NCBI GenBank assembly: GCA_951812745.1
Contig: OX638327.1
Coordinates: 2,009,501 to 2,073,500 of the forward strand
Direction of reading: 5' to 3'
Source of the DNA: an uncultured Nitrospirales bacterium
Lineage (GTDB): Bacteria; Nitrospirota; Nitrospiria; Nitrospirales; UBA8639
DNA length: 64,000 bases
Position numbers and translations under genes: made by a program. Shown piece by piece: positions 33,775-38,088 of the stretch (its first letter is position 1; each line of letters starts with the position of its first letter). The notes under the pieces were generated by a model, which did no database searches, was not told the origin of the DNA, and was given only the letters and a program-made list of their open reading frames with translations.

Positions 33775-33917
33775 CGGACAGGTATTGTGGCAAATCTTCC
33801 AGAGCGAGGGCCACCTCTTTTTACAAGGTCGGCGTCACAATGTTCACGTATTCGTTGACAACTCCCGCTCCAACACCCTCTTCCTCCGGTAGGAAAAAGG
33901 CACAACGCGCCAAGGAT

Positions 33918-34000
33918 GTCACCCTGAACGAAGTGAAGGGTCTGCTTTTTGAGGCGCTCGGTTGTTGCGTGAGAGATTTTTCGCTACGCTCAGAATGACC
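33918..34000. repeat. Short inverted-repeat element (MITE-like)
   Basis: Imperfect inverted repeat of about 83 bp: left arm GTCACCCTGAACGAAGTGAA, right arm GATTTTTCGCTACGCTCAGA then ATGAC, which read reversed gives GTCATTCTGAGCGTAGCGAA. Such units are scattered in many environmental bacterial genomes. It lies 55 bp from the left end of the transposable unit. A solitary arm-like piece (TGTCCTGAGCGAAGGAAGG) occurs near 40224. Confidence 0.65.
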
Positions 34001-34048
34001 ATGGTGCGTGAGTGGTCATGTTCGACCCGACTGTTTCATATGGGCCGC

Positions 34049-34054
34049 ACAAGT
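34049..34054. repeat. Target-site duplication, left copy (ACAAGT)
   Basis: ACAAGT lies directly outside the left terminal inverted repeat and matches the six bases outside the right repeat (37962-37967). Confidence 0.75.
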
Positions 34055-34077
34055 GGGTAGTGTCTCAGTTTGAATTT
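34055..34077. repeat. Left terminal inverted repeat of the transposable unit
   Basis: 23 bp, starting GGGTAGTGTCTCAG and ending TTTGAATTT; exact reverse complement of 37939-37961. Confidence 0.9.
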
Positions 34078-34120
34078 GCCGCCTCTCTTTTTCCCAGTTC
34101 CGTTGTGTTACAATCCGCAC

Positions 34121-34735
34121 ATGTCAGACTATTTTAACTACATTATTGATACCTCTCAGAAAACCTATGATGAGTATGAGGAAGAATATCGGCGATTGAA
34201 TCGGTTGATTATTGGTTTCTCTGCCGGTGCCATTGCTTTTGTTGGTTCGATGTTTGCTCCCAGTGCTGGGCGCGTTCCGTGGTTAATGACGACCGCCCTA
34301 ATCCTCTACCTTTTGTCCTTTTGGTTCGGCCTAACCGTTGAATATATGCTTTTGACTCGGTTAGAGAACAGGCTTGAAAAGCTTTCCCAGCGTGTTCCTG
34401 AGGATGAGGGTTCTCCTGCTTCTAACGACGAGTATATGGAAATTCCCTTTTCCATTTATCAAAGTCTCTCCCATGAATTTCCTTCATGGAAGCTCCACTC
34501 CCAAATAGTTGCGTTTTTTATCGCCACCGTGTTGGTGCTTCTTGACTTTTTGTTACCACGAAACCCTGATTACTTGGACGTTGTGAAGGTGGTTTTGTGG
34601 GGCGCAGGTTTGGCCGTCGGTACTGTTTTCATTGGTCTTGTGCTTTCCCGAATAAGAGACGATTCCAAACGAATGAATGAAAAACTATGGAGTTTCTATG
34701 CCAAAAGGACCGACAGGACAAAGACGACCCGGTGA
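34121..34735 (+). CDS. Four-TM membrane protein, passenger of the transposable unit
   Basis: 204 residues starting MSDYFNYIIDTSQKTYDEYEE, an acidic amphipathic N-terminus. Four hydrophobic segments are arranged as two pairs: LIIGFSAGAIAFVGSMF and MTTALILYLLSFWFGL, then IVAFFIATVLVLLDFLL and VLWGAGLAVGTVFIGLVL, with a charged linker between the pairs. No family recognised; the general layout resembles small membrane effectors of bacterial conflict systems, but this is inference. A -10-like TACAAT at 34109-34114 would place transcription start at or beside the ATG (possible leaderless mRNA); no ribosome site is present. A longer frame to 34070 begins in the terminal repeat and is rejected. Confidence 0.65.
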   Translation: MSDYFNYIIDTSQKTYDEYEEEYRRLNRLIIGFSAGAIAFVGSMFAPSAGRVPWLMTTALILYLLSFWFGLTVEYMLLTRLENRLEKLSQRVPEDEGSPASNDEYMEIPFSIYQSLSHEFPSWKLHSQIVAFFIATVLVLLDFLLPRNPDYLDVVKVVLWGAGLAVGTVFIGLVLSRIRDDSKRMNEKLWSFYAKRTDRTKTTR

Positions 34736-34940
34736 CGTGATCGGAGCCGCGATCAAGGTTGCCAGGATCGCTACCGGTGAGGTTGAGGAACAATACACAA
34801 CACCAATAGAGAGGGGAAAAGCTGGCGGTTTAAAGGGTGGAAAGGCTCGTGCATCAAAACTCACGGCTAGAGAGCGGAGCGAAATAGCAAAAAAAGCCGC
34901 CGAAACAAGATGGCGCAAGAATCATCTTGATTTGCCGTAG
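34698..34940 (+). CDS. Small basic protein, passenger of the transposable unit
   Basis: 80 residues: MPKGPTGQRRPGDVIGAAIK, ARIATGEVEEQ, then GKAGGLKGGKARASKLTARE and RSEIAKKAAETRW. This is a widespread small family (MPKxPxGxxRPxDVIGxAxxVxxIATGE, ending in RSEIAKKAAxxRW) without known function; the Lys/Gly/Ala-rich middle suggests nucleic-acid binding. GGAG lies six bases before the ATG. It overlaps the end of the 4-TM gene by 38 bases in another frame, so the two are probably co-expressed. Confidence 0.7.
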   Translation: MPKGPTGQRRPGDVIGAAIKVARIATGEVEEQYTTPIERGKAGGLKGGKARASKLTARERSEIAKKAAETRWRKNHLDLP

Positions 34941-35044
34941 ATATTGATTCTTCCTTTCATTTGAACTGCTTGACAAAAGAGAATTTCTTGTACTACTTTG
35001 TAGTGGTACCCCCCAGTGTGGGTATTGTTATGACTCCCTTCAAA

Positions 35045-35629
35045 TCAAATGCGTTGGCGTTCGAATACAAAAGAAATTACGGGGACGCCTGCAGGAAGTT
35101 GGAACTCTGCGACATCGTGAACTATCCCCCATTGGCGAGCGAATTCCGCCGTCTTGGTTTGCGCCTCCCTGAAGAAACCCTCAACTTGGTCCTGCTTGAT
35201 CGAAGTCCGATCGACAATAATGTCTCCAATTCGTTTTTGATCGGATAAGATTCCGTCAAGCATTTCTCTTAAAGGTTTCTCTTCGTACCGACCAGCTTGC
35301 TGGTCGAACCCCACACCATGAAACATGAATGTGGCATTGGGACAGGCGACTCGTCTGTCTGCTGCGAGAAAGATAGCATTCCCAATAGAGTCAACATTCC
35401 CAATATTGTGTGCGGTTAAATTGAACGGAACTGATCTAAGAAAATTATAGAGTGCGATCCCAGCTGTTACTTGACCGCCTGGAGTTGATATTACCAAATA
35501 TACATCACGTACTTTTTGCTGCGCGAGATTCGACATCGCCTGCATTAAGGTCTCAACCGTATTCGGATTAATTTCAGCCGTGAAGAGAACATAGACTAGG
35601 TTTGGGATTTGTTGATCTGGTGATGCCAT
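35045..35629 (-). CDS. Divergent ClpP-fold serine peptidase, passenger of the transposable unit
   Basis: 194 residues. ClpP-like landmarks: DVYLVISTPGGQVTAGIALYNFL (oxyanion strand), catalytic Ser in NVDSIGNAIFLAADRR, catalytic His in FMFHGVG, and a possible Asp in IKQDQVEGFF. The sequence differs strongly from housekeeping ClpP at 14926-15537: it lacks the ASMGA and MIHQP signatures and the ClpX-docking N-terminus. The family is known as a set of Clp-like proteins with no proven function. A strong ribosome site (GGAGGT) precedes the ATG. It follows the ATPase gene after 17 nt, so the pair forms an operon; the ATPase may recruit or gate the peptidase. Confidence 0.85.
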   Translation of the reverse strand: MASPDQQIPNLVYVLFTAEINPNTVETLMQAMSNLAQQKVRDVYLVISTPGGQVTAGIALYNFLRSVPFNLTAHNIGNVDSIGNAIFLAADRRVACPNATFMFHGVGFDQQAGRYEEKPLREMLDGILSDQKRIGDIIVDRTSIKQDQVEGFFREAQTKTAEFARQWGIVHDVAEFQLPAGVPVISFVFERQRI

Positions 35630-35646
35630 ATTCTTGTACCTCCCTC

Positions 35647-36900
35647 TTACTGCCCATTTACTGCATCTCTAGACTTTTCCTTAGATTCTTCTAAGAATTG
35701 GTTTGTCAGCATTCCAATCGAGTAATCGTGAATGATTACATATGGTTGTAGCATCGCATCAATAAAGCGGTATCTTCGATACCATTTGGCTCCAGTGCTC
35801 TTTAATATTGGCCCTCGCTTTGGCTGACAAAACTCGGAAAGATGCCGAGAAAAATCTGAAATTTGGCACTCCCGAAACAGTATCTTTGATAGCTGTTCAC
35901 ATACCGCCTTCGCCGTGAAATAGCCAAACTCATCCGTTTTTGCGAGGGCGCAGGCGCTTAAAACCTTTGCATAAATATTTCCTGGTCGCGGGCTTAACAC
36001 CGCTTTGCTGTAAGCACTCGCAATTATTTGACTTGTCTGAACAATTGATGTCGTTGCCGCAAGGACATCATTGATCGTTATCTCTTTTCTCCCTTCCTCT
36101 ATTGCCGAGAAGGATGAATAGAGTCCCAATAAGTGTGTGTAATGTGGCAATCCTCGCGATAAGTGAGTGATCCATGTCTTGCATTCTTCTGGAATTGTAA
36201 TTCCTGAGCCCTCTTCGCCTGTTTCCAATATCTTAATCAGTTCCGTAGGAGACATGCGTTGCATTGGGACTGGTACAAGTGATCGTTGAATGGACTGATG
36301 TTCGGCAACCAGTTCATCTACAGAATCTCCAACTCCAACAAGAACTAATGTCGCGTCCACTGCATGATCAGACAAATTTTTTATTGTATCTGCTAACTGT
36401 GAACGGGATATTTGGTCGAACAGACGATCAAGTTCATCGATGATCAGTACAATCGATTTATCAATCTTGGAGGATAAGAAATAACGAATGTCGTCGGGCT
36501 GAAGAGGATGTTCTGGTAGGATGCTGGCAATAGGAACGGCAGATGTCACCTTCGATTTCTCAAATCCTGCATCTTGCGATTCCATCGCAAAAGACAACTC
36601 TCGGAATATTTTTCTCCATAGTTTGTCAAAATTGTCCGTTGGATCACAGTTTATTGTTCCAGAGTTAAGCGTCTTGAAACTTTCTGCTCTTCGCATCATG
36701 TCAGATACGACCTTGGCCAGTGATGTTTTCCCAACCCCTCTGTCTCCAAAAATGATGACATGTTGGCCGGGCTGAATTATTGCATTGAGGACCTTCCTAA
36801 TTTGCAACTGCCTGCCAGCGAAGAGTTGTTGTCTGTCGATTGGAGTGCCTGGCTTAAAAAAGGCAGCTGCGGCAGCTTTCAGGTTTATCATTTCAGACAT
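35647..36900 (-). CDS. ORC/Cdc6-like AAA+ ATPase, passenger of the transposable unit
   Basis: 417 residues. LFAGRQLQIRKVLNAI leads into Walker A GDRGVGKTS; Walker B is IVLIIDELDRL; a sensor-like stretch is ATLVLVGVGDS. After the AAA+ lid (LSRGLPHYTHLLGLYSS) comes a C-terminal winged-helix-like region (GPILKSTGAKWYRRYRFIDAML). The type is AAA_16/ORC-like, seen in signal-transducing and DNA-binding ATPases; transposition ATPases (TniB/TnsC) share the Walker pattern, but no DDE partner of that kind is here. First gene of the ATPase-peptidase operon, driven by the promoter at 36953-36981. Confidence 0.82.
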   Translation of the reverse strand: MSEMINLKAAAAAFFKPGTPIDRQQLFAGRQLQIRKVLNAIIQPGQHVIIFGDRGVGKTSLAKVVSDMMRRAESFKTLNSGTINCDPTDNFDKLWRKIFRELSFAMESQDAGFEKSKVTSAVPIASILPEHPLQPDDIRYFLSSKIDKSIVLIIDELDRLFDQISRSQLADTIKNLSDHAVDATLVLVGVGDSVDELVAEHQSIQRSLVPVPMQRMSPTELIKILETGEEGSGITIPEECKTWITHLSRGLPHYTHLLGLYSSFSAIEEGRKEITINDVLAATTSIVQTSQIIASAYSKAVLSPRPGNIYAKVLSACALAKTDEFGYFTAKAVCEQLSKILFRECQISDFSRHLSEFCQPKRGPILKSTGAKWYRRYRFIDAMLQPYVIIHDYSIGMLTNQFLEESKEKSRDAVNGQ

Positions 36901-36952
36901 GTCAACACCGTTCTCTTTGTTCCCCGAGCGGATGCGTATACGATGGTGTCAA

Positions 36953-36981
36953 TATATACAAGTTTTTTAAGATAATGTAAA
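36953..36981 (-). promoter_or_regulatory. Promoter for the ATPase-peptidase operon
   Basis: Reading the minus strand: TTTACA (36981-36976), a 17-bp spacer, TATATA (36958-36953). Predicted start near 36946, a leader of about 46 nt. Strong match by eye in an AT-rich region, so chance matches are possible. Confidence 0.5.
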
Positions 36982-37030
36982 GTTTTGTAATTATACAAAA
37001 AGTAAATGTACATTATGGTAAACTTATTGC

Positions 37031-37059
37031 TTGACAAACTAATAAAAGTTCATTATGAT
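37031..37059 (+). promoter_or_regulatory. Consensus promoter for the transposase, apparently leaderless
   Basis: TTGACA (37031-37036), exactly 17 bp, TATGAT (37054-37059). Transcription would begin near 37066, one base before the transposase ATG at 37067, implying a leaderless mRNA. The earlier ATG at 37055 lies inside the -10 element and cannot be used from this promoter. Confidence 0.65.
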
Positions 37060-37066
37060 TATCGTC

Positions 37067-37951
37067 ATGAACACACTGACAAACACCAAACGCATTCAGA
37101 TTCTCTCCATGTTGGTCGAAGGCTCCAGCATGCGGACCATTTCACGCATTGTGGGCGTCAGCATCAATACAGTTACGAAACTCCTGGTGGAAGCAGGCCA
37201 AGCCTGCGAAGCCTTCCATGATGAACACGTTCAGGCTGTTCACGCTTCCAAAGTGCAATGCGATGAGATTTGGAGTTTCTACTATGCCAAGCAAAAGAAC
37301 GTCAGGCATGCCCAAGCCGCGCCAGAAGAAGCCGGTGACGTGTGGACCTGGACAGCCCTTGAGAGCGATTCCAAGTTGATGCTGTCGTGGATGGTGGGTG
37401 ATCGGGACGCGGGCTACGCCACGGAGTTCATGCGGGATTTGGAGTCACGGGTAGCAACCCGCGTTCAACTGACAACGGACGGCCACCGAGCCTACCTGGA
37501 AGCTGTAGAAGACGCCTTCGGGAATAACATTGATTACGCCCAGTTAGTGAAACTCTACGGGGAATCGTCAGAGCCGGGACCGGAACGGAAGTACAGCCCG
37601 TCCGTTTGTAACGGCACACGTAAGCAGAGGATTCAAGGCAATCCTGAAAAGAAATACGTCTCAACGTCTCACGTGGAACGCCACAACCTCACCATGAGAA
37701 TGAGCCTGCGACGGTTCACCAGGTTGACGAATGCCTTTTCCAAGAAGATCGACAATCATTGTCATGCGCTGGCCTTATACTTCGTCTTCTATAATTTCGT
37801 GAAGATTCACAAGACCCTGCGGGTGACTCCATCCATGCAAGCAGGATTGACGGATCGCGTGTGGGAATGGGAAGACGTGCTGGCAATGATTGATTCCAGG
37901 AAACTGGCACCGAAGAAGCGTGGACCGTACAAGAAAAGAAATTCAAACTGA
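37067..37951 (+). CDS. IS1-family-type DDE transposase
   Basis: 294 residues starting [19 protein letters not shown]. The N-terminal helix-turn-helix ([20 protein letters not shown]) binds DNA; the catalytic acidic residues sit in [19 protein letters not shown] and [11 protein letters not shown]. Single-frame transposases of this group are annotated as IS1 family; no programmed frameshift is needed here. The stop codon lies inside the right terminal repeat. It looks intact and is probably responsible for moving the whole 3.9-kb unit. Confidence 0.9.
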
Positions 37952-37961
37952 GACACTACCC
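37939..37961. repeat. Right terminal inverted repeat of the transposable unit
   Basis: 23-bp exact reverse complement of 34055-34077; contains the transposase stop codon. Confidence 0.9.
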
Positions 37962-37967
37962 ACAAGT
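37962..37967. repeat. Target-site duplication, right copy (ACAAGT)
   Basis: Direct repeat of 34049-34054 immediately outside the right terminal repeat; 46 bp before tRNA-Val. Confidence 0.75.
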
Positions 37968-38013
37968 GCGATTCATTGTCAGGAATCAACGGGCTATGCT
38001 AGACTCGTTGCGT

Positions 38014-38088
38014 GGGCGATTAGCTCAGTGGGAGAGCGCTTCCCTCACACGGAAGAGGCCACTGGTTCGATACCAGTATCGCCCACCA
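38014..38088 (+). tRNA. tRNA-Val (CAC anticodon), CCA encoded
   Basis: Cloverleaf: acceptor GGGCGAT/ATCGCCC, D arm with GCTCAGTGGGAGAGC, anticodon stem CTTCC/GGAAG with loop CTCACAC (anticodon CAC), T arm ACTGG-TTCGATA-CCAGT, discriminator A, CCA at 38086-38088. The insertion at 37967 left the gene body intact, though its promoter region may have been altered. Confidence 0.96.

Follow-up and report, generated by a model that had tools for sequence, protein, structure and literature searches.

The window analysed here is a 64-kb stretch (64,000 nucleotides) of the genome of an uncultured Nitrospirales bacterium (GenBank assembly GCA_951812745.1, contig OX638327.1, positions 2,009,501 to 2,073,500). 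At positions 34056–37960 it contains a 3,905-bp element that very probably is a transporter insertion sequence (tIS), an insertion sequence (IS) with passenger genes, of the IS1 type. Its transposase is encoded by a single open reading frame (ORF), and the element would move as one unit and possess a replaceable cargo slot. It is bounded by perfect terminal repeats and a target duplication, a second copy with other cargo lies in the same genome, the corresponding locus of relatives lacks it, and related elements share a nearly constant frame around a variable middle. A first-pass annotation, made from the sequence alone, had proposed a self-contained, passenger-carrying IS1-type unit. This proposal is borne out by the second element, by the locus without the element in relatives, and by 36 cargo-bearing relatives.

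Ends, transposase and insertion site

The extremities are a perfect pair of 22-bp inverted repeats, GGTAGTGTCTCAGTTTGAATTT on the left and its complement on the right, directly flanked on both outer sides by the 8-bp direct repeat CACAAGTG (table 1). With up to three mismatches, the 22-mer has four sites in the genome, a single contig of 2.35 Mb, forming two facing pairs, whereas the reversed control pattern has none; these ends are therefore not due to chance. They fit the form GGnnnTG, and the duplication fits the length of 8–9 bp, both of which we take to be characteristic of the IS1 family. The GC content of the element is 46% against 59% in its flanks, in agreement with the AT-rich block of the first-pass annotation. 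The latter had also described perfect terminal repeats of 23 bp and the direct repeat ACAAGT. The repeats are indeed perfect but 22 bp long: one base of the direct repeat had been counted into the inverted repeat, and the real duplication is the 8-bp CACAAGTG. The second element in the genome sets the same boundary.

As initially noted, one intact transposase gene lies at the right end, together with four other genes, encoding a predicted membrane protein, a small basic left-end protein (LEP), a ClpP-like protease, and an AAA/ORC-like ATPase. Residues D66, D138, and E204 of the transposase are found in the conserved blocks CDEIWSF, LTTDG, and HVERHN, and the protein matches the Pfam family DDE_Tnp_IS1 with 24.4 bits (cut-off 24.1). 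Classical IS1 members encode their transposase by the overlapping frames insA and insB, joined by a −1 frameshift. The window element, with its uninterrupted ORF, does not have this layout, which is not required of the single-ORF branch. This branch, the ISMhu11-like group, with elements of up to several kilobases, would be the closest counterpart within IS1; a search by name found no paper.

The second element of the genome is 2,853 bp long, has ends identical to those of the window element, and is flanked on both sides by its own 8-bp duplication, CACCTGTT. It encodes its own LEP and a transposase 89% identical to that of the window element. Its cargo consists of a Gp49-type gene, a helix-turn-helix (HTH) gene whose best Pfam match is just under the cut-off, and a gene without family. 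The same repeats thus bound different cargo, as the first-pass annotation had envisaged. It had also envisaged an empty site, with a single ACAAGT preceding tRNA-Val. We searched 14 genomes of the genus, the window's own included, with the joined flanks as query. The right flank with tRNA-Val is present in 12 of the 13 other genomes (all except G008), and these 12 loci were read. In ten of them the left neighbor gene aligns 22–540 bp from the right-flank match, leaving no room for a 3.9-kb insert; in the other two (L097 and L099) the left side of the tRNA-Val locus did not align. The element is therefore lacking from ten loci, as anticipated, but the single copy is a related sequence, CACAAGCG, which stands in G003 and G005 in the place of CACAAGTG. 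Because the left intergenic side varies among relatives, the precise junction is resolved only in part. An intergenic repeat at 33915–34011 adjoins the insertion; it is present once in the window and as many partial copies in the rest of the genome and in the genomes of the genus.

Table 1. Features of the window element and of its insertion site (positions in the window)
Feature	Position	Strand	Remarks
Left target-site duplication CACAAGTG	34048..34055	.	Related single copy CACAAGCG at the matching position in two relatives
Left terminal inverted repeat, 22 bp	34056..34077	+	Starts GGTAGTG
Predicted membrane protein, 204 aa from ATG, left module	34121..34735	+	Homologue in element L019 (Nitrospira sp. 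SB0662_bin_26)
LEP, small basic left-end protein, 80 aa, isoelectric point 10.5	34698..34940	+	38-bp overlap with preceding gene
Cargo ClpP-like serine protease, 194 aa	35045..35629	-	Ser81 in DSIGN, His104 in FMFHG
Cargo P-loop AAA/ORC-like ATPase, 417 aa	35647..36900	-	Walker A GDRGVGKT, Walker B LIIDE
Single-ORF IS1-type DDE transposase, 294 aa	37067..37951	+	Alternative ATG 37055; stop codon inside right repeat
Right terminal inverted repeat, 22 bp	37939..37960	-	
Right target-site duplication CACAAGTG	37961..37968	.	
tRNA-Val(CAC)	38014..38088	+	Downstream of insertion; insertion upstream of tRNA, not within

Frame and cargo slot in related elements

Related transposases were collected from 12 of the 48 genomes of the window's family (E up to 1e-30), from 34 loci of the named-genome collection, and from 4 of 11 plasmid records. 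A locus entered the census when at least 250 transposase residues matched in one piece, which gave 43 loci with 49–100% identity. Left out were seven loci below this limit (L048, L050, L051, L052, L061, L062, and L063) and L053, which duplicates L019. Because the search started from the window's transposase, it may have overlooked distant members without cargo. The 19-bp end pattern, used with up to three mismatches, matches by chance in several genomes of the family; its control is not zero, and single weak matches mean little.

Both ends were located in 36 of the 43 loci. These elements span 2,095–4,224 bp (median 3,140), and they were identified, with an LEP gene, under records named Nitrospira, Alpha- and Betaproteobacteria, Flammeovirgaceae, Chloroflexi, and others. 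In each of the seven remaining loci (L032, L033, L041, L042, L043, L047, and L060), the contig stops no further than about 1.3 kb from the transposase, on a side that lacks an end. Of the 36 two-ended elements, 30 show a target duplication matching at 7/8 or 8/8 positions (29 exact), against 2 of 2205 comparisons reaching at least 7/8 in a shifted 8-mer control, which does not copy one step, the use of a good duplication to choose among candidate end pairs. For L056, with the repeat-like target CACTACCC, an insertion into the end of another copy was checked and rejected. None of the 36 elements is free of cargo. At least 1,171 bp separate the left end from the transposase in all of them (range 1.2–3.1 kb), the GC content left of the transposase is always below that of the flanks, and 12 have more than 200 bp of additional DNA, a right-hand cargo, between transposase and right end. 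The first-pass annotation had suggested a search for the terminal repeats in related genomes and had regarded the element as a passenger-carrying form of a group of about 1 kb. The two-ended relatives do carry cargo, but as the rule, not the exception, in the branch of at least 49% identity.

Comparison of individual elements delimits what is constant. The window element shares with L019 its first 734 bp (82% identity) and its last 915 bp (85%), and with L005 61 bp at the left end, 87 bp of the LEP gene, and the last 933 bp; the parts common to the three are the left end, the LEP region, and the last 915–950 bp only. The middle genes differ even between elements whose transposases are 89–91% identical. 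The same frame with a different middle is also found in L034 and L037, which lie in one genome, and in L020 and L022. In all five pairs compared the middle differs, and the shared length does not exceed 50%.

We scanned 30 cargo proteins, a hand-picked part of the reading frames, and 13 of them match no family at 0.001. The others include YafQ with RelB (L036), a PemK/MazF-type toxin with an AAA_21 ATPase (L027), HigB (L055), Gp49 with HTH (L005), HTH plus an M78 metalloprotease (L019, L038, and L054), an SDH/ClpP-like protease (L029), P63C (L044), DUF5343 (L045), and a nuclease domain (L057). By sequence clustering, the HTH/M78 type occurs in seven elements, the P63C type in six, and an HTH gene with its neighbor in four. 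The ATPase of the window element is related to a cargo protein of the Nitratireductor element L035; its plasmid relatives are at most 44% identical, and a distant one (27%) adjoins phage portal and terminase genes. That ATPase and ClpP-like protease form a fixed pair is unproven: by eye, L035 has no ClpP-like neighbor, and none is annotated beside two plasmid relatives, whose gene tables are incomplete.

These data suggest how such elements may move and change. The DDE transposase would act on the 22-bp GGTAGTG ends and insert the 3.9-kb block as a whole, duplicating 8 bp of the target, so that the block, judging from its structure, probably moved in one event. The frame consists of the left repeat, LEP, the transposase, and the right repeat, and the slot of the DNA between LEP and the transposase, extending in the 12 relatives with right-hand cargo to the right of the transposase. 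In the window element, the protease and the ATPase occupy the slot, and the membrane protein sits in the left module. Homologous recombination, in which related elements pair through their common left module and transposase gene, would be the most likely way of exchanging cargo. L025 and L026 show a possible example: they coincide in the right junction and share some 9 kb of right flank (74–77% identity), but differ in the cargo between LEP and transposase and in the left flank, and L026 has no duplication. Recombination between two related elements would leave this pattern, as might a false assembly join in L026. The cargo, often made up of toxin–antitoxin and other conflict-type genes, probably aids the persistence of the element or the protection of its host.

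Alternatively, a short IS1-type element might have caught neighboring host genes by a one-off rearrangement, such as the acquisition of a new outer end, giving an arrangement that is not conserved. Indeed, transposase and ends without the rest would have the size of an ordinary IS, about 1 kb, and the genus contains short derivatives bounded by the same ends, three of 230, 193, and 253 bp and one of 1154 bp whose content is different. However, cargo in all two-ended relatives and LEP on the left side in nearly all loci make this accidental origin very unlikely. The window ATPase was found in this genome only among 198 sampled from the phylum (E up to 1e-20), which argues against a local host gene. 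Still less credible is a decayed composite transposon, in which the cargo once lay between two IS copies, one of them now reduced to a bare end. Such decay would likewise leave a single transposase facing a bare repeat, and in one of the 36 elements (L030) a fragment of a transposase lies immediately beyond the left end. Yet two IS copies do not flank the cargo of the window element: no second transposase match (E up to 1e-3) was detected inside any of the 36 elements, the window element among those searched, or within 2 kb outside the latter, and the left end holds LEP, not a transposase remnant.

The left-end protein and the weight of the evidence

A profile built from nine copies identified LEP in 40 of the 43 loci, these nine counted, always upstream of the transposase and on the same strand; in L029 it is split across two frames. 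It was missed in L041, L047, and L042, where 1,340 bp, 124 bp, and 2.9 kb of upstream DNA are available, respectively. A whole-genome search of 18 transposase-bearing genomes gave 22 matches in 16 genomes, 17 of which are copies beside known transposases, as judged by comparing coordinates by hand. Within the window's family, 16 of the 48 genomes contain a total of 23 matches. By hand comparison, an end on the same strand lies no more than 2 kb upstream of 15 of these 23 when up to three mismatches are allowed, and of three more at four or five mismatches; the other five have none. The ratio of nonsynonymous to synonymous substitution rates (dN/dS), computable in two of three comparisons, is 0.07 and 0.13; these are rough values, with amino acids kept and silent sites near saturation.

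Most likely, LEP binds DNA and assists or regulates transposition. The possibility that it is itself cargo, an antitoxin, an anti-silencing protein, or a DNA-protecting stabilizer, is less probable but deserves attention. LEP is small (75–80 aa) and basic (isoelectric point 10.3–10.5) in three Nitrospira copies, its C-terminal part matches the start of the phage family phrog_2384, and its profile weakly matches some P63C-type cargo genes. It also adjoins ends in genomes without a transposase match (for instance G004, G009, G010, and G012). On the other hand, LEP keeps its left position while the other cargo changes, which better fits a part of the frame. A search against solved structures gave nothing useful (best E 0.89). 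In a Mesorhizobium loti plasmid, a homologue of LEP (L120:2075-2284) is annotated as "histone H1."

Several observations weigh against the transporter IS reading. The 2.9 kb upstream of the transposase in L042 contain neither LEP nor a left end, and both are likewise lacking in L050, whose transposase is broken. Six of the 36 two-ended elements (L026, L027, L035, L039, L055, and L121) have no good duplication, and many loci come from metagenome assemblies, in which joins at repeats can be false, as applies to L026. Among the element pairs, the same cargo was not found in two copies at unrelated sites, and the joint movement of the window cargo is for this reason deduced from structure. With the NCBIfam IS1 model, the transposase scores 71.4 bits, under the cut-off of 100, although this is still its best family; the match begins at model position 44, and IS1595 reaches 24.4 bits. 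Because IS1 models score borderline or below cut-off, we use the label "IS1-type" rather than a firm assignment to IS1. LEP matches no family above cut-off in the protein family libraries, and its predicted structure, three helices, is of low confidence (predicted local distance difference test 76, predicted template modeling score 0.37).

With this evidence in view, the transporter IS reading given at the outset remains the one that we favor. Much more tentatively, we propose that the elements are a family of their own, compact cargo transposons defined by a frame of two proteins (IS1-type transposase and LEP) and an always filled slot, with LEP as a required or regulatory second transposition protein. 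If so, the slot would circulate toxin–antitoxin and other conflict genes, including the ClpP-like protease and AAA ATPase, between phyla. The transporter IS reading itself would make IS-sized elements regular vehicles of changing cargo in several phyla. The 22-bp ends with LEP would provide a searchable signature for unknown conflict genes, and LEP, small and conserved, would lend itself to direct tests of its part in transposition.

Known elements, other genes and derivatives

The elements share with the single-ORF IS1 branch their best match to IS1 models, GGnnnTG ends, an 8-bp duplication, and one ORF. They differ from it by the partial, sub-cut-off NCBIfam match, by the 1.2–3.1 kb between left end and transposase, and by LEP. 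ISs carrying passenger genes are already known, and tIS is an established category, according to PMC3129680 and PMC9330008. Like tIS, the window element has IS-type ends and a target duplication enclosing the whole block, one IS transposase, and passengers unrelated to transposition inside the unit. Unlike tIS as described in the consulted passages of these two papers, which mention no constant accessory gene, every two-ended member found has passengers, and LEP is nearly constant while the passengers vary. In Tn3-family transposons, toxin–antitoxin passengers lie near the transposition genes and were acquired several times independently, as stated in PMC7157771. The elements described here resemble them in carrying toxin–antitoxin genes close to transposition genes. 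They differ by another transposase family and a size of 2.1–4.2 kb, and a family scan of the window element's genes revealed no resolvase. Among the open-licence literature matches listed, as far as their text is available, none describes a conserved LEP or an always-filled slot; the new part is this combination.

The membrane protein of the window element has a SLATT-like match, far under the cut-off, and the ATPase matches the phage family phrog_6841, of unknown function (158 bits). PADLOC assigned no defence system to the window cargo, with no match for the membrane protein, LEP, or the protease and only short matches for the ATPase.

Three copies in the genus resemble miniature inverted-repeat transposable elements, with the same type of ends and 8/8 duplications: L103:1039-1268 (230 bp), L109:988-1180 (193 bp), and L114:838-1090 (253 bp). 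The 1154-bp derivative mentioned above has the same ends. In G004, a genome without a transposase match, a unit of 1,912 bp (L101:1873-3784), which has the same ends and a 7/8 duplication, carries, by eye, a ribbon-helix-helix/PIN toxin–antitoxin pair. A 5.1-kb unit with an 8/8 duplication (L104:1560-6676) has a further end in its interior, a pair of oppositely oriented LEP-like genes, and several small genes; it possibly consists of nested or recombined elements.

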